Positions 25,451 to 51,848 of a DNA stretch of 64,000 nt are shown here, piece by piece; positions within the stretch are counted from its first letter, which is position 1; every line of letters begins with the position of its first letter. A program made the translations under genes and the position numbers. The DNA comes from Lysobacter concretionis Ko07 = DSM 16239 (GTDB lineage Bacteria > Pseudomonadota > Gammaproteobacteria > Xanthomonadales > Xanthomonadaceae). The notes beneath the pieces are model-generated. The model was not told the origin of the DNA, ran no database searches, and worked only from the letters and a program-made list of their open reading frames with translations. Location of the stretch: the NCBI RefSeq assembly GCF_000768345.1, contig NZ_AVPS01000008.1, forward strand, positions 124,001 to 188,000, written 5' to 3'.

Positions 25451-26227
25451 ATGAACACTTCTGCCGCGGCTTCGTCCGTCATCGACCTTGCCTCCCTGCG
25501 CCGGGGCTGCGCGCAGTGCTCGCTGCGGCAGTTGTGCCTGCCGGCGGAGATCGGGCCGGTGGACCTGCAGCAGCTTGACGAGATCGTCCGCCGCCGGCGT
25601 CCGGTGGAGCGCGGTGAGTGGCTGTTCCGCACCGGCGACCGGCTGGGCTCGGTGTATGTGGCCCGCGACGGCGCGTTCAAGACCGTCAGCACCACCGAGG
25701 ATGGGGATGCGCAGGTGGTGGGTTTCCATCTGCCGGGCGAACTGATCGGGCTGGATGCGCTGGGGACCGGTACGCACCGCTGCGATGCGGTGGCGTTGAC
25801 CACCGCGAATGTCTGCGAAGTGCCGTTCGAGCAGCTCACCACGATCGCCGCGCAATTGCCGAGCCTGCAGCAACAGCTGATGCGGGTGATCGGCCAGAGC
25901 GTCGGCCGCGACCAGGACCACCTGGAGATGCTGGTGCGCCGCCAGGCCAACGAGCGCATCGCGTTGTTCCTGCACGGCCTGGGCGAGCGGCTGAGCAATA
26001 TCGGCCAGTGCGGCAACAAGTTCCGGTTGCCGATGGGCCGGCAGGACATCGCCGATTTCCTGGGCCTGGCGCTGGAAACCGTCAGCCGCGGCTTTACCCG
26101 CCTGCAGGACGACGGTGTGATCGTGGTGCTCGGTCGCAGCGTGGAGATCGTCGATGTCGCCGAACTGCACCGCCTCGCGCACGGCTGCGAGCCACCGGCG
26201 CCGGCCGCGCAAGCGCGGCAGCGATAG
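25451..26227 (+). CDS. fnr: FNR oxygen-sensing transcription regulator
   Basis: A 258-residue Crp/Fnr protein. Cysteines at 20, 23 and 29 match the E. coli FNR cluster ligands exactly, and C111 (in THRCDAV) is the likely fourth, so a [4Fe-4S] oxygen sensor is expected. The cNMP-like beta-barrel (about 35-150), dimer helix and HTH (RQDIADFLGLALETVSRGFTRL, about 197-218) follow. The recognition helix keeps E-x-x-S-R, which reads TTGAT half-sites. Matching sites precede ccoN, ubiU and ubiD and lie near nirK in this window. Confidence 0.93.
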   Translation: MNTSAAASSVIDLASLRRGCAQCSLRQLCLPAEIGPVDLQQLDEIVRRRRPVERGEWLFRTGDRLGSVYVARDGAFKTVSTTEDGDAQVVGFHLPGELIGLDALGTGTHRCDAVALTTANVCEVPFEQLTTIAAQLPSLQQQLMRVIGQSVGRDQDHLEMLVRRQANERIALFLHGLGERLSNIGQCGNKFRLPMGRQDIADFLGLALETVSRGFTRLQDDGVIVVLGRSVEIVDVAELHRLAHGCEPPAPAAQARQR

Positions 26228-34143: not shown

Positions 34144-35652
34144 TCAGCCCTGCACTTCGGCCGCGTGCGGCGCCAGCACCGGATGTGCGGCCGGAGCCAG
34201 CACGCTCTGGCGCGTGCGCCACATGTTCCAGGACATCAGGCAGATGCCGGCCAGCACCATCAGCCCGCCGAGCAGGCGTCCCAGGTAGTACGGATAGGTC
34301 ACCGCCAGCGACTCCACGAAGCTGTAGGTCAGCGTGCCGTCGGCGTTGGTGGCGCGCCACATCAGGCCCTGGGTGATGCCGGCGATCCACATCGAGGCGA
34401 TGTAGAACACCACGCCGACGGTGTGCAGCCAGAAATGGCCGTCGATCCACTTGGTCGAGTACATCGCCTTGGCACCGATCAGGCGCGGATACAGCGAGTA
34501 CAGCGAGCCGAAGGAAATCATCGCCACCCAGCCCAGGGTGCCGGCGTGGACGTGGCCCACGGTCCAGTCGGTGTAGTGGCTGAGCGAGTTGACGGTCTTG
34601 ATCGACAACAGCGGGCCTTCGAAGGTCGCGATCATGTAGAAGCTGATCGCCACGATCAGGAACTTCAGGATCGGGTCGGTGCGCAGCTTGTGCCACACGC
34701 CCGACAGGGTGAGGATGCCGTTCATCGCGCCGCCCCAGCTCGGGGCCAGCAGGATCACCGAGAACACCATGCCGACCGACTGTGCCCAGTCCGGCAGCGC
34801 GGTGTAGTGCAGGTGGTGCGGACCGGCCCACATGTAGACCGAGATCAGCGCCCAGAAGTGCACGATCGACAGCCGGTAGGAGTAGATCGGCCGCTGCGCC
34901 TGCTTGGGCACGAAGTAGTACATCATCGCCAGGTAGCCGACGGTCAGCAGGAACGCCACCGCGTTGTGGCCGTACCACCACTGCGCCATCGCATCGACCG
35001 CGCCGCTGTAGACCGAGTAGGACTTGAACAGCCCGGCCGGGAAGACGAGGTTGTTGACGATGTGCAGCAAACACACGCCGATGATGTAGGCGCCGTAGAA
35101 CCAGTTGGCGACGTAGATGTGCTTGACCCGGCGTTTGGCGATGGTGCGGAAGAACAGCCAGCCGTAGGCGACCCAGACCACCGCGATCAGGATGTCGATC
35201 GGCCATTCCAGCTCGGCGTATTCCTTGCCCTGGGTGATGCCCATCGGCAGGGTGATGACGGCACTGACCATCGCCGCCTGCCAGCCCCAGAACACGAAGC
35301 TGGCCAGCTTGTCGGAGATCAGCCGGACGTGGCAGGTGCGCTGCACGACATACAGACTGGTGGCGAACAGCACCGAACCGCCGAACGCGAAGATCACGCC
35401 GTTGGTGTGCAGCGGCCGCAGCCGGCCGTAGCTCAGCCAGGGGGTGTCGAAGTTCAGAGCCGGCCAGTAAAGCTGGGCGGCGATGAACACGCCGACGGCC
35501 ATCCCCACGATGCCCCAGAACATGGTCGCGACCACGAACTGGTGGACCACCTTGTCGTTGTAGTAGCCGCGGGGCGCGGCCAGCGCGGAGTCACCCAGCG
35601 CGGAGTCACCGGGGCCAGCCGGCATCGCCATGGCATCGTCATGCACAGTCAT
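34144..35652 (-). CDS. ccoN: cbb3 cytochrome c oxidase catalytic subunit I
   Basis: CcoN (502 aa) reduces O2 at a heme b3/CuB centre with very high affinity. Twelve membrane segments and the ligand histidines are visible: [13 protein letters not shown] (CuB region), [13 protein letters not shown] (HH pair), [12 protein letters not shown] (heme ligands). The first gene of the cco operon, it is preceded by a perfect FNR site centred 62.5 bp before its ATG. Confidence 0.96.
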
Positions 35653-35707: not shown

Positions 35708-35721
35708 TTGATCTGGATCAA
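35708..35721 (-). promoter_or_regulatory. FNR box of the cco operon
   Basis: TTGATCTGGATCAA is a perfect match to TTGAT-N4-ATCAA. Its centre is 62.5 bp upstream of the ccoN start, so activation from -41.5 would leave a leader of about 20 nt. An FNR with the matching recognition helix is encoded at 25451. Confidence 0.9.
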
Positions 35722-39454: not shown

Positions 39455-40978
39455 TCAGTGGCCCGCCGAGGCGTTGGCCGGCTTGGTCTTGCGCATCTCG
39501 GCGACCTCGGCCTTGGTCACCTTGCCGCCCGGGTTGTTCCAGCTGTTGAGCACGTAGGTCGAGATGTTGGCGATCTCGTCGTCGGTGAGCTGGTTCATCG
39601 GCGGCATGATCGAGTTGTAGTCGGTGCCGTTGACCGTGACCGGGCCTTCCAGGCCATGCAGGATCACCCGCGGCAGGGACTTCGGGTCGGCCTTGATGTA
39701 GTCCGAGTCGGCGATCGGCGGGAACACGCCGGCCATGCCCTGGCCGTTGGCCTGGTGGCAGGTCGAGCAGGTGCCCATGAACAGTTCCTTGCCGGCCTGG
39801 ATCTGCTCCTCCACGGTCAGCTCGCCGGTCTTCTGCGCGGCGGCGGCCACGGCGACGGCGGCCAGGTTCGGTGCCGCGCGGTCGCCGATGTACATCTCGT
39901 CGACTTCCAGGCCCGAGTAGATCTCCTTGTTCTCCGGCCCATCGGCCTTGAGGATCGCCAGCGCACCCTTGTTGAACGCGCGGAAGATGCTGTGGTCGAC
40001 CAGCACGTAGCTGCCCGGCACTTCCAGGTGGAACTCCATCATCGCCGCGCCGCCCGCCGGGATCAGCGTGGTCTGCACGTTCTCCTGGTACTTGGTGCCG
40101 CCTTCGTACCAGACCTTGTCAAAGATCTCGCCGATCACGTGGAAGCTCGACACCAGGTTCGGGCCGCCGTTGCCGACGTACATCCGCACGGTTTCGCCGA
40201 CTTTCGCGGTCAGCGACTTGTCACCGGTGGTGGAGCCTTCCGAGCCGTTGAACAGCACATAGGTCGGGTGCTCATCGATCGCCTTTTCCATGTCGAACGG
40301 CTGCAGGCCCTTCTCGCGGTATTTGCCGGTGGTGTAGAAGTCGCCCTGCATCACGTAGTACTCCTTGTCCACCGCCGGCAGGCCCTCCGGCGGCTCGACC
40401 AGGATCATTCCGTACATGCCGTTGGCGATGTGCATGCCGACCGGCGCGGTCGCGCAGTGGTAGACATACAGGCCGGCGTTGAGCGCCTTGAAGGTGAACT
40501 GGGTGCGGCGGCCGGGCGCGGTGAAGCTCGAGGCCGCGCCGCCGCCGGGGCCGGTCACGCCGTGCAGGTCGATGTTGTGGGGCATCTTGCTGTCGGGCAT
40601 GTTGCGCAGGTGGAACTCCACCGTGTCGCCCTGCCGCACGCGGATGAAGCTGCCCGGCACGGTGCCGCCGAAGGTCCAGAACGTGTAGTCCACGCCTTCG
40701 GAGATCGGCATGACTTTCTCGATCACGTCCAGCTCGACGATGACCTTGGCTGGGTGGCTGCGGCCGGTGGCCGGTGGCACATGCGGCGGGCTGGTCAGCA
40801 CGGCCTTGATCGGTTCCCCCTGCGGCGGTCCGAAATCGCCCTTGCGGGAACCGCCGGTCTCCTGCGCGGTGGCATCGGCCGCCGGCGTGGCAGTGGGTGT
40901 GCTGCTCCGGTCACAGGCCGGCAAGGCCAGTGCCAGCGCCGCCAGCAGCGGTATCAGGTAAACGGTTGTGCGCTTCAT
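39455..40978 (-). CDS. nirK: Copper nitrite reductase with C-terminal cytochrome c domain
   Basis: A 507-residue, probably lipid-anchored periplasmic enzyme reducing nitrite to NO. An N-terminal lipobox (LALPAC, Cys about residue 22) and a Ser/Thr/Ala-rich linker precede two cupredoxin domains. Type 2 Cu histidines are in PHNIDLHG, the type 1 Cu set in [11 protein letters not shown] (about 173-183) and the catalytic second-domain His in SSFHVIGE. A heme c domain with CSTCHQ near 403 is fused at the C-terminus, as in the Ralstonia pickettii type. Two FNR-like sites lie upstream. Confidence 0.95.
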
Positions 40979-41090
40979 CTGCGGACTCTCCGGGAGAGGG
41001 GAAACGGTGGGTAATGCGGACAGGAATGGCGGGCGGAATTGCGACCGGCGTGGATTTTCGGGAAGGGTGGCAGGAATGACGCAGCGGATT

Positions 41091-41104
41091 CTGATCTGGA
41101 TCAA
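41091..41104. promoter_or_regulatory. FNR/DNR-type box 1 in the nirK divergent region
   Basis: CTGATCTGGATCAA differs from the FNR consensus at one base. Its centre is 119.5 bp before the nirK ATG and 137.5 bp before the small ORF at 41235. Either gene, or both, may be controlled, possibly by an NO-responsive Fnr homologue. Confidence 0.75.
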
Positions 41105-41139
41105 ATTTTCCGGGCTGCCGGAGCCGTTGTGGCAAGCGC

Positions 41140-41153
41140 TTGATCCAGATCAC
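41140..41153. promoter_or_regulatory. FNR/DNR-type box 2 in the nirK divergent region
   Basis: TTGATCCAGATCAC matches the FNR consensus except for the last base. It lies 49 bp from box 1 and 88.5 bp (centre) before the small ORF at 41235, so it is better placed for the rightward genes. Confidence 0.7.
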
Positions 41154-41457: not shown

Positions 41458-41814
41458 ATGGACGACGATGCCGGGCCGTCAATGGATGCACGGCCTGAAA
41501 CCGCGCTCGACTTCCGCGGGTTGCCGGCGCCCGAGCCGATGGCGCGTGCGCTGGCGGCCGCCGATACGTTGCTTCCGGGCGGAGAGGTCGCGGTGCTGAC
41601 CCCGTTGATGCCGCTCCCGTTGCTGGATCTGTTGGCGGCGCGTGGCCTGCTGACGCAAAGCCGGGCGCTGGCCGATGGCGGCGTGCTGACGCTGATCCGG
41701 TGTCCGCATGGACAGGGTGCTGCGGACCCGCCGGAGCAGGGCGAGCCGGCGCAAGCCCGGCAAGCACAGGCCCGACAAAAGCAGGGCGCGGACATTGGCA
41801 CGACTCGCCCTTGA
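41458..41814 (+). CDS. DUF2249-domain protein
   Basis: A 118-residue protein whose core (LDFRGLPAPEPMARALAAAD, then PGGEVAVLTPLMPLPLLDLL and GGVLTLIR) is the DUF2249 domain. These small domains recur in denitrification and NO-related clusters, but no activity is established. ATG 41458 is my start; GTG 41416, eleven bases after the small ORF's stop, is an alternative. The Gln/Ala-rich tail overlaps the next gene by 107 bp, so either this tail or the next gene's N-terminus may be mis-set. Confidence 0.68.
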   Translation: MDDDAGPSMDARPETALDFRGLPAPEPMARALAAADTLLPGGEVAVLTPLMPLPLLDLLAARGLLTQSRALADGGVLTLIRCPHGQGAADPPEQGEPAQARQAQARQKQGADIGTTRP

Positions 41815-43138
41815 TCGCGCGCCGGCACCGGCGTTGCCGCGCCGGTTCCTGCTCAGCGCACCGCTGTGGGGTGCGTTGACGGGCGTGCTGCTGTTGGCCG
41901 GCGGCGAGGCGGCCGTGGTCGATCGCTGGTCGCCGATGACGCTGGCGGCCGTGCACATGTTGACCCTGGGAATGCTGGGCAACGTCATGTTCGGCGCACT
42001 GCTGCAGTTTCTGCCGGTGGTGGCGGGGGTGCGGATCACCGGCGGCCCGCGCGCAGCGCATCTGCTGCACGCGCTGCTCAATCTGGGCGCGGCCGGACTG
42101 GTGGCGGGATTCCTGGGCCGGTGGTGGGACGGTTTGCTGATGGCGGCGGCGGTGCTGGCGTTGGCATTCGGCTGCCTGGCGGTGATGACATTGCCGGGTC
42201 TGTGGCGGGCGGCCGGCCAGGCATTGCTGCGGACCGGTATCGCGATGGCGATCCTGGCGGCGCTGGTGACCGCGGCGCTCGGGATCGGCATGACCGTGGG
42301 GCTGTCGGGCCGTGCCGGACTGCCACTGCAGCCCTGGGCGGACATCCACGCCGGCTGGGGCGTGCTGGGCTGGATGCTGGTGCTGATCGCCAGCGTGGGG
42401 CGGGTCACGATGCCGATGTTCCAGGGCACGGCCAGCACGTCGGTGCGCAGCCAATCCACCTGGCTGCTGGCCGTACTGATGGTGCTGCTGCCCGGATCGA
42501 TCCACTGGGTGGTGGACGGCGAGCCGGGCGCGCTGCGGCTGGGTGCGGCGCTGCTGGTGACCGCCTTCGCGCTGGCGGGCTTGTGGTTGCAGTGGAGCGC
42601 GCCGCGCAAACGCGGCCGGCCGCTGGTGCGCAGCTGGCGCGCAGGCCTGCTCGCCCTGCTGGTTGCACCGTGGCTGCTGGGCGTGGGCGACGGGATGCTG
42701 GCGGGCATCTTGGCCATTGCGGTCGGCGTGCCGCTGCTGGTGATCGGCATGCAGATGGAGATCGTGGCCTTCCTGGGCTGGATCGGCCTGCAGCGCGCCT
42801 GCCCGCGCGGCGTGCTGGTTCCGAGCGTGCAGCAGTTGCTGCCCGATGCCGACAAGGGCCGCGTGCTGGCCTGGCACGTGGCGGCGTGTGCGTTGCTGAT
42901 CGCCGCCGTGGCGTGGCCGCACGACGGGCTGGCGCGGCTGGCCGGGCTGGCGTTGCTTCTGGCGTATGGCGCGCTGTGGTGCGCGTTGCGCCGGGTCGGA
43001 CGGCGCAGCGATGACTTCCTGTCGTCGCGTCCTTTCCACCCACCGGCGAGCGCGCCGGACCGCCATTCCGCCGCGGAGCCCGCCAACCAGGACGACCGCC
43101 ATGCAGCCGACCCCACCCATGCCACCAACGACGCCTGA
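41708..43138 (+). CDS. Polytopic membrane protein, NnrS / heme-copper-oxidase-like
   Basis: A 476-residue protein with about eleven to twelve membrane helices. Histidines in helices (AAVHMLTLGMLGNVMFGALL, near residues 79-98; WADIHAGWGVLGWML, near 215) resemble the heme-binding helices of the NnrS family and distant oxidase subunit I relatives. NnrS-type proteins protect against NO or appear with nitrite reductases. The first ~45 residues are basic and overlap the DUF2249 gene; a TTG near 41796 may be the true start. Family placement is tentative. Confidence 0.55.
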   Translation: MDRVLRTRRSRASRRKPGKHRPDKSRARTLARLALDRAPAPALPRRFLLSAPLWGALTGVLLLAGGEAAVVDRWSPMTLAAVHMLTLGMLGNVMFGALLQFLPVVAGVRITGGPRAAHLLHALLNLGAAGLVAGFLGRWWDGLLMAAAVLALAFGCLAVMTLPGLWRAAGQALLRTGIAMAILAALVTAALGIGMTVGLSGRAGLPLQPWADIHAGWGVLGWMLVLIASVGRVTMPMFQGTASTSVRSQSTWLLAVLMVLLPGSIHWVVDGEPGALRLGAALLVTAFALAGLWLQWSAPRKRGRPLVRSWRAGLLALLVAPWLLGVGDGMLAGILAIAVGVPLLVIGMQMEIVAFLGWIGLQRACPRGVLVPSVQQLLPDADKGRVLAWHVAACALLIAAVAWPHDGLARLAGLALLLAYGALWCALRRVGRRSDDFLSSRPFHPPASAPDRHSAAEPANQDDRHAADPTHATNDA

Positions 43139-43994
43139 CCCGGTCGCGCTGGCCTGGGTACGCCGGGCGATCGACGGTGTCGACGACGCGATGCTGCTGC
43201 TGCTGGCCGGTCGCGGCCGGCTGGCGCGCCACGCCGCGCGGATCAAGCAGCGCGCCGGCGTACCCGGTCGCGATGCGGGCCGCGAGGCGCGGGTGCATGC
43301 ACGCGCGCAGTCGCTGGCATCGCGGATCGGCCTGCCCGCGGCGACCGCGCGGGCGATGACCTGCCTGGCGATCGACCACGCCTGCCGCCAGCAAGGGCTC
43401 GCAACTGATCTGGATCAAGGCCGGCAACCTGCCATCCACCGCATGATCGTTCCCGCCATGCACGACACCTCCGCACACAACGCTCCCTCCCCTCGCCATT
43501 CGGCGCTGCTGCGTCTGATCCCGCCGCCGTCGCGGCTGGCGCCGTTGTTGCGCGTGGTGCCCCTGACCGCCCAGCGGCGCCTGCTGGAACGTGCGATGCA
43601 GCGCGTGCTGGCGGCGCCGCTGGCGGACGGCACGCTGGACTTCATGCAGGGCCGCCGGCTCGGCATCGAAGTCACCGACCTGGGCCTGCGCTGGGTGATC
43701 GAGCAGCACGGCACCCGGTTGACGGTCACCGACGAGGCGCCCGAGGCCAGCGTGCGCGGTACCGCGACCGACCTGCTGCTGCTCGCCAGCCGGCTGGAGG
43801 ATGCGGACACGCTGTTCTTCCAGCGCCGGCTGGTGCTGACCGGCGATACCGAGCTGGGCCTGACCGCGCGCAACCTGCTGGAGCGGTTGCCGTGGGAATC
43901 GGTGCCGCTGGGCCTGCGCATCGGCCTCAACCGCGGCGCGCGCCTCGCCCGCGCGGCCCGCACGGCGCATGCGGCGGGTCGCCAGCGCACCTGA
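43101..43994 (+). CDS. ubiT: Chorismate mutase (AroQ-like) fused to UbiT (SCP2-like) ubiquinone factor
   Basis: One 297-codon frame holds two units. Residues ~14-105 form an AroQ chorismate-mutase-type helical domain (AWVRRAIDGVDDAMLLLL, R in RLARHAARIKQRAG, REARVHARAQ, GLPAATARAM). Residues ~130-275 are UbiT, the SCP2-type lipid-binding factor of oxygen-independent ubiquinone synthesis (ADGTLDFMQGRRLGIEV, DADTLFFQRRLVLTGDTELG). An FNR-like box is embedded in codons 102-106 just before the UbiT part, where ATG 43443 and ATG 43458 could start a separate UbiT. It overlaps the NnrS-like gene by 38 bp. Confidence 0.8.
   Translation: MQPTPPMPPTTPDPVALAWVRRAIDGVDDAMLLLLAGRGRLARHAARIKQRAGVPGRDAGREARVHARAQSLASRIGLPAATARAMTCLAIDHACRQQGLATDLDQGRQPAIHRMIVPAMHDTSAHNAPSPRHSALLRLIPPPSRLAPLLRVVPLTAQRRLLERAMQRVLAAPLADGTLDFMQGRRLGIEVTDLGLRWVIEQHGTRLTVTDEAPEASVRGTATDLLLLASRLEDADTLFFQRRLVLTGDTELGLTARNLLERLPWESVPLGLRIGLNRGARLARAARTAHAAGRQRT
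43405..43418 (+). promoter_or_regulatory. FNR-like box inside the chorismate mutase-ubiT frame
   Basis: CTGATCTGGATCAA, identical to box 1 near nirK, is translated here as part of ATDLDQG. It is centred 31.5 and 46.5 bp before in-frame ATGs at 43443 and 43458. It may be an internal promoter for ubiT or a remnant of a promoter caught in a gene fusion. Confidence 0.6.
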
Positions 43995-46665: not shown

Positions 46666-46746
46666 GAAAGCAGCCGTTGATGCGCGTCAATACATTCTTC
46701 GCGCCAAACCGGCAAAATCCACCGTTTCCCCTCGTTGCGTGAAAAC

Positions 46747-47262
46747 ATGAATCGACCTTCTTCGTTCGACTACGAGCAGTTGCTCGCCTGCGGCCGTGGC
46801 GAGATGTTCGGCCCCGGCAACGCGCGCCTGCCTGCTCCGCCGATGCTCATGTTCGACCGCATCACCCAGATCACCACCGACGGCGGCAAGTACGGCAAGG
46901 GCTTCGTGCGCGCCGAGATGGATATCCGTCCCGACCTGTGGTTCTTCCCCTGCCATTTCGAAGGCGACCCGGTGATGCCCGGCTGCCTCGGACTGGATGC
47001 GATGTGGCAGCTGTGCGGTTTCTACCTGCCCTGGTTGGGCGCTCCCGGCCGTGGTCGCGCGCTCGGCGTGGGCCAGGTCAAGTTCAGCGGCCAGGTGCTG
47101 CCGGACGCGAAGCTGGTCACTTATGAGCTGGACATCCGCCGGGTCATGCGCGGCAAGCTGGAGCTGGTGATCGCCGACGGACGGACGCTGGTCGACGGCC
47201 GCGAGATCTACAATGCCTCCGACCTGCGGGTCGGGCTGTTCACCTCGACGGAGGGCTTCTGA
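46747..47262 (+). CDS. fabA: 3-hydroxydecanoyl-ACP dehydratase/isomerase
   Basis: FabA (171 aa; E. coli 172) dehydrates 3-hydroxydecanoyl-ACP and isomerises trans-2 to cis-3-decenoyl-ACP, the branch to unsaturated fatty acids. The hot-dog catalytic His and Asp are in [20 protein letters not shown] (about residues 66-85). ATG 46747 fits the family N-terminus; a TTG four codons upstream is also in frame. It is followed by fabB after two bases. Confidence 0.96.
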
Positions 47263-47264
47263 GC

Positions 47265-48500
47265 ATGCGTCAAGCAGCAAACCGACGCGTGGTCGTCACC
47301 GGAATGGGCGTGGTGTCGTGCCTGGGCAATGACCCGGCCAGCGTCACCGACTCGCTGCGCGAGAGCCGTCCGGGCATCCGCTTCATTCCCGAGTACGCCG
47401 AGCTGGGCCTGCGCAGCCAGGTCGCCGGCGAGCCGCAGATCGACCTGACCGAACAGATCGACCGCAAGCTCAAGCGCTTCATGGGTGATGCGGCGGGCTT
47501 CGCCTACGTCGCGATGCGCGATGCGATCGCCGACGCCGGACTGAGCGATGAGCAGGTCCGCGATGTGCGCACCGGCCTGATCGCCGGTTCCGGCGGCGGT
47601 TCGCCGCAGTGGCAGATCGAGACCGGCGACCTGCTGCGCAACAAGGGCGTGCGCAAGATCGGCCCGTACATGGTGCCGCGCACGATGGGCTCGACCGTGT
47701 CGGCAACGCTGTCGACCGCGTTCGGCATCCGCGGACTGAGCTACTCGATCTCCGCCGCCTGCGCGACCTCCGCGCATTGCATCGGCGCGGCGGCCGACCT
47801 GATCCGCCACGGCGCGCAGGACGTGATCGTGGCCGGTGGCGGCGAGGAACTGCACTGGGGCATGACCGCCCAGTTCGATGCGATGGGCGCGCTGTCGACC
47901 AAGCGCAACGACAGCCCGCTGACCGCCTCGCGCCCGTACGACATCGACCGCGACGGCTTCGTCATCGCCGGCGGTGGCGGCATGCTGGTGCTGGAAGAGT
48001 ACGAACACGCCAAGGCGCGCGGCGCGAACATCGTCGCCGAGCTGGTCGGCTACGGCGTGACCTCCGACGGCGTCGACATGGTGGCCCCGTCCGGCGAAGG
48101 CGCGGTGCGCTGCATGCAGATGGCGCTGGCAGGCTTCGGCGACCGCGCCGTCGACCCGATCGACTACCTCAATACGCACGGCACCTCGACCCCGCTGGGC
48201 GATGTGGTCGAGCTGGAGTCGGTGCGCAACGCGTTCGGCGACAAGATCCCGCCGCTGTCATCGACCAAGGCGCTCAGCGGCCACTCGCTCGGCGCCGCCA
48301 GCGTGCACGAGGCGATCTACTGCCTGCTGATGATGCGCGAGGGCTTCATTGCCGGCTCCGCCAACATCGACACCCTCGACCCGCGCGTGGAAGGCTTCCC
48401 GATCGTGCAGCAGAGCCGCGCGGCGACGCTGGACACGGTGATGTCGAACAGCTTCGGCTTCGGCGGTACCAACGGCAGCCTGGTGTTCGCGCGGGTGTGA
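47265..48500 (+). CDS. fabB: Beta-ketoacyl-ACP synthase I
   Basis: FabB (411 aa) elongates cis-3-decenoyl-ACP and so commits FabA's product to unsaturated fatty acids. The thiolase fold is complete: catalytic Cys in [11 protein letters not shown] (about 168), histidines in [12 protein letters not shown] and [11 protein letters not shown], and the C-terminal [15 protein letters not shown]. It is co-transcribed with fabA. Confidence 0.97.
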
Positions 48501-49942: not shown

Positions 49943-50833
49943 CTACCCAGCCGCAACCGCCATATGCTCCGGCCGCATCCCCGGCTCGCCGTGCCAGAAG
50001 CCATTGCGGGCGCCCATGCGGGGGGGCGGGGTCATCGACTGCCGGGCGAGGTCGAAATGCTCCACCACCTCGCGGCAGCCGTCGGCCTGCGGGTAGATCC
50101 GCAGCAGGTCGACGCCGAGGGCGCGCAGGGAGGGCAGTTCGGGGCCGAGGTCGACGGTTTCCTCGCCCTGGATCTGGATGCCGTTGATGCGCAGGAAGGC
50201 GTTGCCTTCGCGGGTCGCCAGCGGCATGCCGTCGGGGTAGTCGATGCAGCGGAAGCCACACTGGTCCTTGGCGACGTCCAGTGCGCGGGCGGTGAAGCAG
50301 CGGGCGGAGTACGACAGCGGCAGGCGGCCCCAGACGGTGACTTCCAGCTCGGGCATGGCGATGCCGTCGGCGAGCAGGGCGTCCTTGAGTTCGCGGATCA
50401 GCTGCTCGCCCTGTTCGACGCCGGGCACCCAGCGACGCAGGCCGTCCTCGATCAGCATCGCCAGCGCGCGGTGGTTGTAGACGTTCAATGACGGTCCGGC
50501 GACGAACGGCAGGCCGGCGGACCGGCACATCTGCACCGCGGACAGGTCGTTGGCCTCGACCCAGAACCCGCCGTGATCGACCAGCCGGGACAGCACGCTG
50601 AGCTCGGATTCGGCCTCGATCAGCGCCAGGCTCGACAGCACGATCTGCTTGTCGCTGGCGGCCAGTTCCTCGGCCAGCGCGATCCAGTCGCGGGTGCCCA
50701 GCTCGCGGCGTTTGCTGCAGACCGTCTCGCCCAGGTAGATCACGTCCAGCGGCCAGTCGGCGGTCTCGCGGTAGAACGCCAGCGTGCGCTCGCGCGGCCA
50801 GAAATACTGCAACGGTGCCAGGCTGAGTTTCAT
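49943..50833 (-). CDS. ubiV: UbiV, U32-family oxygen-independent ubiquinone hydroxylation factor
   Basis: UbiV (296 aa) forms a complex with UbiU that hydroxylates the ubiquinone ring without O2. Cysteines at 39, 179, 192 and 196 line up, within one residue, with the four [4Fe-4S] ligands of E. coli UbiV (39, 180, 193, 197). Start MKLSLAPLQYFWPRE (ATG 50833) is the family N-terminus; the long upstream frame is discarded. It follows ubiU by 16 bases. Confidence 0.93.
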   Translation of the reverse strand: MKLSLAPLQYFWPRERTLAFYRETADWPLDVIYLGETVCSKRRELGTRDWIALAEELAASDKQIVLSSLALIEAESELSVLSRLVDHGGFWVEANDLSAVQMCRSAGLPFVAGPSLNVYNHRALAMLIEDGLRRWVPGVEQGEQLIRELKDALLADGIAMPELEVTVWGRLPLSYSARCFTARALDVAKDQCGFRCIDYPDGMPLATREGNAFLRINGIQIQGEETVDLGPELPSLRALGVDLLRIYPQADGCREVVEHFDLARQSMTPPPRMGARNGFWHGEPGMRPEHMAVAAG

Positions 50834-50849: not shown

Positions 50850-51848
50850 CTAGTGCCAGGCGCGGTGATACGGGCCGAGCGTGGTCTGGTGGCCTTCGGC
50901 GTGACCCGACAGGGTGCGCTGCCAGTCGGGCTGCAAGGCCCAGCTCTCGGGATTGGCTTGGTAGCGATCCAGCGCCGCGCGCCAGGTGCGGGTGACCGAG
51001 CCGACATAGGCGACGCCGCGCTGGCGGCCTTCGATCTTCAACGCCACCACGCCGGCCTGCGCCAGTCGTGGCAGCAGCTCCAGGGTGTTGAGGCTGGTCG
51101 GTTCCTCCAGCGCGTGGAAGATCTCGCCGCCGACATCGAACCGGCCCTTGCAAACGGTCGGATAACCGGCCGGTTCCTCGGGCTGGAAGCGGTCGATCAG
51201 CACGTTGTTGAGGCGCGCGGTGCGGCTGCCGTCGTCGAACTCGTCCCAGCGCACGAACTTCGCCGGCGAGCACACGCCGTGCCGGTTCGGCGAGGCGCCG
51301 GTGACGTAGCTGGAGAGCTGGCAGCGGCCTTCGACCATGATGCACAGGCTGCCGAACGCGAACACTTCGATCGCCACCGGCGAGCGCTCGCACAGGCGCT
51401 CGACCTGCTGTATCGATAGCACCCGCGGCAGCACCGCGCGGGTGATGCCGAAGCGTTCAAAGGCGTAACGCAGCGCCGGTTCGGTGGTGGCCGATCCCTG
51501 CACCGACAGGTGCCGCGCGAGGTCGGGATGGGTGCGCGCGGCGTAGTCCAGCACGCCCATTTCGGCGGCGATGATCGCGTCGCAGCCGAACTCGGCCGCC
51601 TTGTCCACCGCCGCGTGCCACTGCGCGAGGCGCACGCTGTCGGGGTAGGTGTTGAGGGCGAGGTAGACCTTCGCGCCCTTGGCGTGGGCGTAGCGGATGC
51701 CGCAGCGCAGTTCCTCGTCGGAGAAGTTCAGGCCGGGGAACGCACGCGCGTTGGTCTGGTCGCGGAAGCCGGCGTAGACCGCGTTCGCGCCGGCATCGAC
51801 CGCAGCCTGCAGGGCCGGCAGGTTGCCGGCGGGACACACGAGTTGCAT
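50850..51848 (-). CDS. ubiU: UbiU, U32-family oxygen-independent ubiquinone hydroxylation factor
   Basis: UbiU (332 aa; E. coli 331) works with UbiV and UbiT in anaerobic ubiquinone synthesis. Cysteines 169, 176, 193 and 233 match the E. coli cluster ligands (169, 176, 193, 232), and MQLVCPAGNLPALQAAVDAGA is the family start (first 20 residues). ATG 51848 replaces a much longer open frame. A near-consensus FNR box lies 62.5 bp (centre) upstream. Confidence 0.94.
   Translation of the reverse strand: MQLVCPAGNLPALQAAVDAGANAVYAGFRDQTNARAFPGLNFSDEELRCGIRYAHAKGAKVYLALNTYPDSVRLAQWHAAVDKAAEFGCDAIIAAEMGVLDYAARTHPDLARHLSVQGSATTEPALRYAFERFGITRAVLPRVLSIQQVERLCERSPVAIEVFAFGSLCIMVEGRCQLSSYVTGASPNRHGVCSPAKFVRWDEFDDGSRTARLNNVLIDRFQPEEPAGYPTVCKGRFDVGGEIFHALEEPTSLNTLELLPRLAQAGVVALKIEGRQRGVAYVGSVTRTWRAALDRYQANPESWALQPDWQRTLSGHAEGHQTTLGPYHRAWH

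Follow-up and report, generated by a model that had tools for sequence, protein, structure and literature searches.

Escherichia coli ubiT (yhbT) is induced anaerobically from the promoter ubiTp2 in an FNR-dependent manner, according to the accessible part of the report describing it (PMC10470549), and FNR sites have been predicted upstream of 1001 of 1566 ubiT genes (PMC11707229, in the portion available). In anaerobic ubiquinone synthesis, prephenate is the source of the hydroxyl group, as stated in the available sections of a 2024 review citing Ferizhendi et al. (PNAS 2024), which also states that direct enzyme evidence for prephenate as the oxygen donor is still missing (PMC11574389). Prephenate is likewise needed for the U32-dependent tRNA hydroxylation carried out by TrhP, which a PheA with only its chorismate mutase (CM) restores (PMC6599085, as excerpted). 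Here we describe a gene that joins the two themes in a 64,000-nucleotide stretch of Lysobacter concretionis Ko07 = DSM 16239 (contig NZ_AVPS01000008.1, positions 124,001 to 188,000; hereafter the window): a CM-UbiT fusion of 297 amino acids at 43101..43994 on the forward strand, with an FNR-type box within its coding sequence.

We consider it probable that this gene has two products, a full-length CM-UbiT that supplies prephenate for UbiU-UbiV and a free UbiT driven by FNR. We also lean toward a more specific form of this proposal, in which the CM domain is a dedicated generator of the oxygen donor and hands prephenate directly to UbiU-UbiV, the CM survives solely for anaerobic ubiquinone in lineages lacking phenylalanine and tyrosine synthesis, and the linker serves as an FNR promoter for leaderless UbiT. 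An initial annotation of this DNA had offered a fused protein, an internal FNR promoter, or both; the last option is now best supported, by the conservation of the fusion and by DNA-level constraint on the box, while the metabolic reason then given for the pairing was not supported.

The fusion gene and its conservation

The fusion is a single uninterrupted frame of 297 codons, from the ATG at 43101 to the TGA ending at 43994. Residues 20-98 (43158..43394, forward strand) form an AroQ-type CM domain, matching CM_2 (Pfam PF01817) at 46.9 bits against a cut-off of 27. Residues 150-266 (43548..43898, forward strand) match the NCBIfam UbiT equivalog NF047962 at 128.5 bits (cut-off 46.9), the only UbiT match across the genome, and Pfam SCP2 covers residues 168-260 at 49.3 bits (cut-off 21.3). 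The structure predicted for the whole protein, with a mean predicted local distance difference test score (pLDDT) of 88.3 and a predicted template-modeling score of 0.60, consists of three CM helices (residues 14-52, 59-76, and 80-97), a linker, and the SCP2 domain. The linker (residues 101-130; 43401..43490, forward strand) includes two segments predicted to be disordered, residues 108-115 and 117-123, where pLDDT falls below 50. When this model was searched against the PDB, UbiJ-SCP2 (6h6p) ranked on top and E. coli CM (5vht, 1ecm) further down; the CM fold matched over the length of that enzyme with a target-normalised template-modeling score of 0.82-0.84 and E values of 0.005-0.02. A PDB sequence search with the CM domain returned one weak match, 2d8d.

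Catalytic positions were compared by alignment to the E. coli CM sequence, checked against 1ecm; the numbering (R11 to Q88) we take to be that of the E. coli enzyme. The window protein has R11, R28, K39, D48, R51, E52, and Q88, with alanine at the position of S84. Across 98 distinct fusions (73 from the family, eight from genome contigs, and 17 from the order, after dropping six wider re-fetches and identical sequences) these residues are kept in 97, 97, 96, 96, 98, 98, and 93, respectively, and position 84 is alanine in 83 and glycine in ten. By this residue pattern and the predicted fold, the fused CM domain looks catalytically active. AroQ domains dimerise, and a catalytically dead CM could act as a scaffold, for example as a dimerisation module for UbiT. 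The replacement of S84 in 93 of 98 fusions would fit such a role, but each of the remaining catalytic residues is retained in 93-98 of 98, and alanine is likewise found at 84 in a relative's PheA, which makes a dead scaffold very improbable.

The fusion recurs widely in relatives. A scan of 395 genomes of the family gave a match in 79, of which 73 encode CM and UbiT in a single stop-to-stop frame; an assembly or reading error was rejected as the source of the fusion on the strength of this in-frame recurrence. Some family matches carried single-TGA flags, and in the loci classed as fused the frame from domain to domain is intact. Of the six non-fused genomes, two are frameshifted (G327 and G306); in G281 a run of N falls at the junction, G151 has the two parts at contig ends, G104 shows only UbiT within the fetched stretch, and in G323 CM and UbiT are about 8-9 kb apart. 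The joined frame, like the in-frame ATGs at 43443 and 43458, had been pointed out in the initial annotation, and both claims are borne out, the former by the open frame, Pfam, NCBIfam, and its recurrence. A stop codon or frameshift between the domains in homologues, which the same annotation held to speak against the fusion, occurs in two of the 79 (G327 and G306), with the fusion holding in 73. These two genomes are assembled in 1 and 2 contigs and are 86 and 89% complete, and sequencing indels would be a likely cause of their frameshifts. The G323 arrangement is perhaps a split of the fusion. On its contig C10 (L088, L089) a perfect FNR-type box lies 225 nt before the UbiT match.

A scan of the order gave matches in 84 of 299 genomes. 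All 20 full-length matches fetched from three further families (f2, f3, and f12; 22 seen) are fused, and 15 partial-match loci (f7, f9, f11, and f12) have UbiT without CM. In a UbiT tree that omits the fused rows L026, L033, L076, L081, L092, and L093 and includes 31 loci from elsewhere in the class, 92 fused rows fall inside one clade of 102 rows with support 100/87. The other members are seven UbiT-only rows from the two main families, two f11 rows, and one long-branch row, the class-level locus L116, whose placement is not trusted. Some relatives within the fused clade carry UbiT without CM, a point against the two-product proposal; the UbiT-only rows of f11 and the main families look like later CM losses, judging from their place in the tree. 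No CM-UbiT fusion was found among 91 gammaproteobacterial UbiT loci sampled at class level. From its distribution in this tree and these scans, the fusion is old and conserved.

Prephenate and the role of the chorismate mutase domain

The initial annotation had explained the pairing by chorismate being the precursor of the ubiquinone ring. This is probably wrong: a CM diverts chorismate from the 4-hydroxybenzoate branch and yields prephenate. Prephenate as the reported oxygen donor explains the pairing of CM with UbiT better than the supply of a ring precursor, and CM probably makes the oxygen donor of O2-independent ubiquinone synthesis, not the ring precursor. AroQ-fold lyases such as PchB exist, and the conserved residues are compatible with a lyase, so that the domain might instead produce the ring precursor from chorismate by lyase-like chemistry, which the reason given in the initial annotation would demand. 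However, while none of the NCBIfam CM subfamily models reached its own cut-off on the fusion, the best-scoring models were chorismate mutases; the isochorismate lyase model scored 12.8 bits against a cut-off of 126; and a mutase would compete with 4-hydroxybenzoate synthesis, not feed it. We regard the lyase alternative as extremely unlikely.

A CM serving the ubiquinone pathway could persist where the amino acid branches are gone. We searched a panel of 48 genomes, 34 with the fusion and 14 without, for CM_2, prephenate dehydratase, and a TyrA of the family. CM_2 was found in 47 of the 48, by a search that also detects it in 13 of 14 control genomes, and prephenate dehydratase in 40, by a search positive in 14 of 14 controls; 25 genomes gave a match to the TyrA query, which was weak in two. 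Seven of the 34 fused genomes (the window genome G000, G003, G055, G083, G109, G354, and G076) have no CM_2 match other than the fusion. These genomes are 99-100% complete, G083 and G354 in one contig, and chorismate synthase is present in all seven (12 of 12 genomes tested). Apart from S84, the catalytic residues named above are intact in their fused CMs. Four genomes of the same genus without the fusion keep the CM-dehydratase, and the fused genome G152 has retained both. G002, alone among the unfused genomes in showing no dehydratase, likewise gives no CM_2 match (n=1).

Neither prephenate dehydratase nor a family-TyrA match was found in the seven genomes, in a search that did not cover AroH-type CM or PheC. 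Several points weigh against a CM dedicated to ubiquinone. The TyrA query misses other dehydrogenase types, as in G005 and G057. Weak PDH_N matches of 22.5-29.6 bits occur in five of the seven (G000, G003, G083, G109, and G076), and of these only that of G000 is identified: it was rejected as TyrA, being of the 3-hydroxyisobutyrate dehydrogenase type (PF03446, 153.6 bits). Among the seven, UbiU and UbiV were checked only in the window genome. A second CM and a dehydratase are present in 27 of the 34 fused genomes (with the dehydratase of G081 split into three pieces), and there the fused CM is only one of the sources of prephenate. Separately, in three genomes (G004 contig C108, G005 contig C27, and G057 contig C18) a third CM match shares an open frame with a prephenate dehydrogenase match.

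These points bear on whether the fused CM could be an ordinary housekeeping or anaerobic isoenzyme of phenylalanine and tyrosine synthesis, joined to UbiT by a chance of gene order. Its active site is ordinary, prephenate made by the fusion could feed phenylalanine in the 27 genomes with a dehydratase, and in the remaining seven prephenate could still be consumed by PheC or by other dehydrogenases. Nevertheless, those seven keep the CM and its catalytic residues with no dehydratase or TyrA-query match found, the lone unfused genome without dehydratase gives no CM_2 match, and an unfused CM also adjoins ubiT in other families. We consider the isoenzyme explanation unlikely.

The last of these arguments comes from 91 class-level genomes whose match includes UbiT, for which flanks of about 1.5-4 kb, less at contig ends, were fetched. 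In five of them (G899, G653, G761, G793, and G846), belonging to five GTDB families, a separate CM frame abuts ubiT at a distance of -5 to 73 bp, measured between stop-to-stop frames. Four of these CMs are divergent from ubiT and one follows it on the same strand, and each of the five stretches also encodes UbiU and UbiV. The adjacent CMs (L113, L118, L121, L124, and L207; four of the five loci are in the UbiT tree) are CM_2 by Pfam and keep R11, R28, K39, R51, and E52. To be set against this association are the lack of a Q88 equivalent in all five, the retention of D48 in only one, and the absence of any CM from the fetched flanks of the remaining 86 genomes. Given this residue pattern, full activity of these stand-alone CMs may depend on a partner protein. 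Assuming one or two CM genes in each genome, we estimate that chance would place CM beside ubiT in far less than one genome.

Prephenate from the fusion might also serve other users, such as the U32 hydroxylases TrhP and RlhA, or CmoA, the link to UbiT then being one of co-regulation only. The prephenate requirement of TrhP and its relief by a CM-only PheA, as given in the accessible text, lend this some substance (PMC6599085). Against it, the fusion partner is UbiT itself and ubiTUV also accompany the adjacent stand-alone CMs; we find this possibility rather improbable.

The junction box as a predicted internal promoter

Codons 102-106 of the fusion contain an FNR-type box, CTGATCTGGATCAA, at 43405..43418, found by a palindrome search and conserved in phase in relatives. 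It has one mismatch to TTGATNNNNATCAA, and the same 14-mer stands at 41091-41104, in the gap that separates nirK from the operon ending with the fusion; the initial annotation was correct in calling it identical to a box near nirK. The window has six sites with at most one mismatch to TTGATNNNNATCAA compared with 0.31 expected, a number reached in none of 100 shuffles, and the genome (3.03 Mb) has 68 compared with five for the reversed pattern. At about one site per 45 kb, a chance box just before the ubiT start is unlikely. Conservation of the box is the stronger argument against chance: at two mismatches or fewer it is present in 47 of the 98 distinct fused junctions, always in one codon phase, and a further ten junctions have it with three mismatches in the same phase. 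The three-mismatch sites of L068 and L082 look like chance.

The surroundings of the box are conserved as well. A -10-like hexamer, CATGAT, lies 23 nt after the box at 43442..43447 on the forward strand. The pattern NANNNT, whose two fixed positions are the most conserved of a -10 element, has this spacing in 47 of 47 boxed junctions and, these being related sequences, in 26 of the 26 left after thinning at 75% identity. At other offsets between 10 and 34 it occurs in 0-4 of 47 each, and at offset 35, over the ATG, in 31. In class-II FNR-type promoters the box is centered near -41.5 and accompanied by a -10 element, and transcription usually starts 6-7 nt past the -10 hexamer. By this rule the gap of 23 nt would place the box center at -41.5 or -42.5 and the start of an internal ubiT transcript at 43453..43454 on the forward strand. 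An in-frame ATG follows the box by 36 or 39 nt in 46 of the 47 boxed junctions. In the window it opens a predicted free UbiT frame at 43458..43994 (forward strand) behind a leader of 4-5 nt; translated alone, 43458-43991 scores 129.8 bits to the UbiT model. Across the boxed junctions the geometry of box, hexamer, and ATG predicts leaders of 1-5 nt, in agreement with the earlier guess that the leader would be very short.

Could the box be a by-product of a conserved DLDQG peptide, with no regulatory role? The motif xDLDQG does recur in junctions. We recoded each junction synonymously, using its best-matching site, so that the resulting probabilities favor a box: they were <0.01 in 21 of 47 junctions and >0.25 in seven, where more than a quarter of the recodings give an equally good box. 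However, AT-richer codons are preferred within the box (GAT for Asp in 61 of 81 codons compared with 301 of 763 elsewhere in the same genes, and CAA for Gln in 35 of 46 compared with 84 of 411), and the palindrome stays while the residues change (DPGQ, DVGQ, DTDQ). The bases and spacing of the -10-like site are likewise kept despite a varying first-codon residue (Met in 35, Ile in 5, Thr in 5, Ser in 1, and Lys in 1 of 47). Moreover, in the CM-less ubiT genes L041, L042, and L147 the box persists, with its spacing and ATG, beyond the stop codon that closes the preceding gene. A purely peptide-driven box is therefore very improbable, and by codon use and these comparisons the junction box is under DNA-level constraint.

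Other evidence limits the role of the promoter. No box at two mismatches or fewer is present in 51 of the 98 fused junctions, including, among the sole-CM genomes, those of G109 (three mismatches) and G354 (five), and no Shine-Dalgarno sequence was evident by eye before 43458. The internal promoter is thus not a necessary part of the fusion, and we rejected it as an explanation of the fusion as a whole. The co-occurrence of fusion and box that the initial annotation had proposed as a check holds in part: 47 of the 98 junctions are boxed, the others are not, and some CM-less ubiT genes have the box. On the age of the promoter relative to the fusion, the f9 outgroup (eight loci) has one box at two mismatches or fewer, with different geometry, and the three boxed UbiT-only loci nest in the fused clade. 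At several other ubiT loci (L149, L108, L110, L113, L118, and L129) the distance between an FNR-type box and the following in-frame start codon is about 50-60 nt, so a short leader may be specific to the fused clade. In the CM-less locus L146 (G593) the ubiT frame continues from a shortened membrane protein, presumably NnrS-like, through a three-mismatch box into UbiT; by its frame, this is possibly a second, different UbiT fusion.

The conserved phase of the box, the -10-like spacing, the ATG, and the boxed CM-less ubiT genes together indicate that the linker DNA doubles as a predicted class-II FNR-type promoter. The mRNA it would give is a near-leaderless ubiT transcript, with FNR binding and the start both predicted from the sequence pattern. 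Under our proposal of two products, full-length CM-UbiT would be read from upstream promoters together with the preceding gene; its CM domain would convert chorismate to prephenate next to the lipid-binding partner UbiT, and prephenate would then be the oxygen donor for UbiU-UbiV. At low oxygen, an FNR-type activator would act at the class-II promoter within the linker-coding DNA, yielding a nearly leaderless mRNA and extra free UbiT. We infer enzyme activity, prephenate hand-over, FNR binding, the transcript start, and the two protein forms from the sequence.

Genomic context and relation to known systems

The window encodes the other components that the proposal calls on. ubiU, the U32 hydroxylase gene of O2-independent ubiquinone synthesis, lies at 50850..51845 on the reverse strand (NF047963, 527 bits, cut-off 440), and its product scores 145.9 bits with the model of the prephenate-dependent TrhP, far under the cut-off of 534. 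ubiV is at 49943..50833 on the reverse strand (NF047965, 341.4 bits, cut-off 275), with the Met of MKLSLAPL taken as its start. An Fnr-type regulator is encoded at 25451..26227 on the forward strand; it has Crp-type helix-turn-helix and cNMP domains and is just over the cut-off for the Fnr subfamily PRK11161 (229.1 bits, cut-off 228). Upstream of the fusion, and overlapping its start with its 3' end, an open reading frame at 41708..43138 on the forward strand encodes a multi-pass membrane protein with no Pfam or NCBIfam match at 0.001, which we take to be NnrS-like. Two FNR-type boxes (41091-41104 and 41140-41153; 41091..41153), again from the palindrome search, lie between nirK and the operon ending with the fusion and are a possible promoter of the full-length form, as predicted from their position.

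Other features of the neighborhood were observed alongside. The nirK protein (39458-41062, reverse strand) has a C-terminal cytochrome c-like stretch after its copper nitrite reductase domain; residues ~400-508 score 35.6 bits with a ccoP model, below its cut-off. A perfect TTGATCTGGATCAA is found at 35708-35721, just upstream of ccoN (34147-35652, reverse strand). Between the fusion and ubiUV, the region 46735-48500 contains candidate genes that we assume to be FabA/FabB-like, and such presumed genes are also near the ubiT-CM pair of L121 (G761), from a distant family.

The fusion provides independent genomic support for prephenate as the oxygen source in anaerobic ubiquinone synthesis, a recent claim. 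Genomes that apparently lack enzymes of the phenylalanine and tyrosine branches yet keep the fused CM make it testable what prephenate is for without amino acid synthesis, and the junction shows with unusual clarity how a single piece of DNA can be a protein linker and a predicted promoter at once. CM and UbiT are known families; no report of their combination was found in the open-access texts searched, none of which has UbiT or UbiU together with chorismate mutase, and the passages on fusions or chorismate in UbiTUV papers do not refer to it either. FNR control of ubiT is known, and we did not find its location within a fusion or the near-leaderless geometry described.

Among known systems, E. 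coli UbiT (YhbT) with ubiTp2 likewise pairs a UbiT equivalog with an FNR-type box before ubiT. Unlike the fusion, it has no CM domain, its box and promoter are intergenic, and the available parts of the report do not describe it as leaderless (PMC10470549). The UbiT-UbiU protein of Zymomonas mobilis is also a UbiT gene fusion and was taken, in the excerpted text, as evidence of shared function (PMC6747719); there the partner is the hydroxylase, whereas here it is the enzyme making the hydroxylase's oxygen donor. The U32 hydroxylases TrhP, RlhA, and UbiU-UbiV, with prephenate as donor, provide the biochemistry that gives the CM-UbiT pairing its sense; in those systems prephenate comes from general metabolism, with no dedicated or fused mutase described in the portions available (PMC6599085, PMC11574389). 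In the P-protein PheA (CM-prephenate dehydratase) of the same bacterial family, an AroQ CM is likewise fused to a protein that uses prephenate or, as with UbiT, acts alongside a prephenate user; the partner there is prephenate dehydratase, and the whole CM domains score about 75-83 bits compared with 36-61 for the fused CMs.

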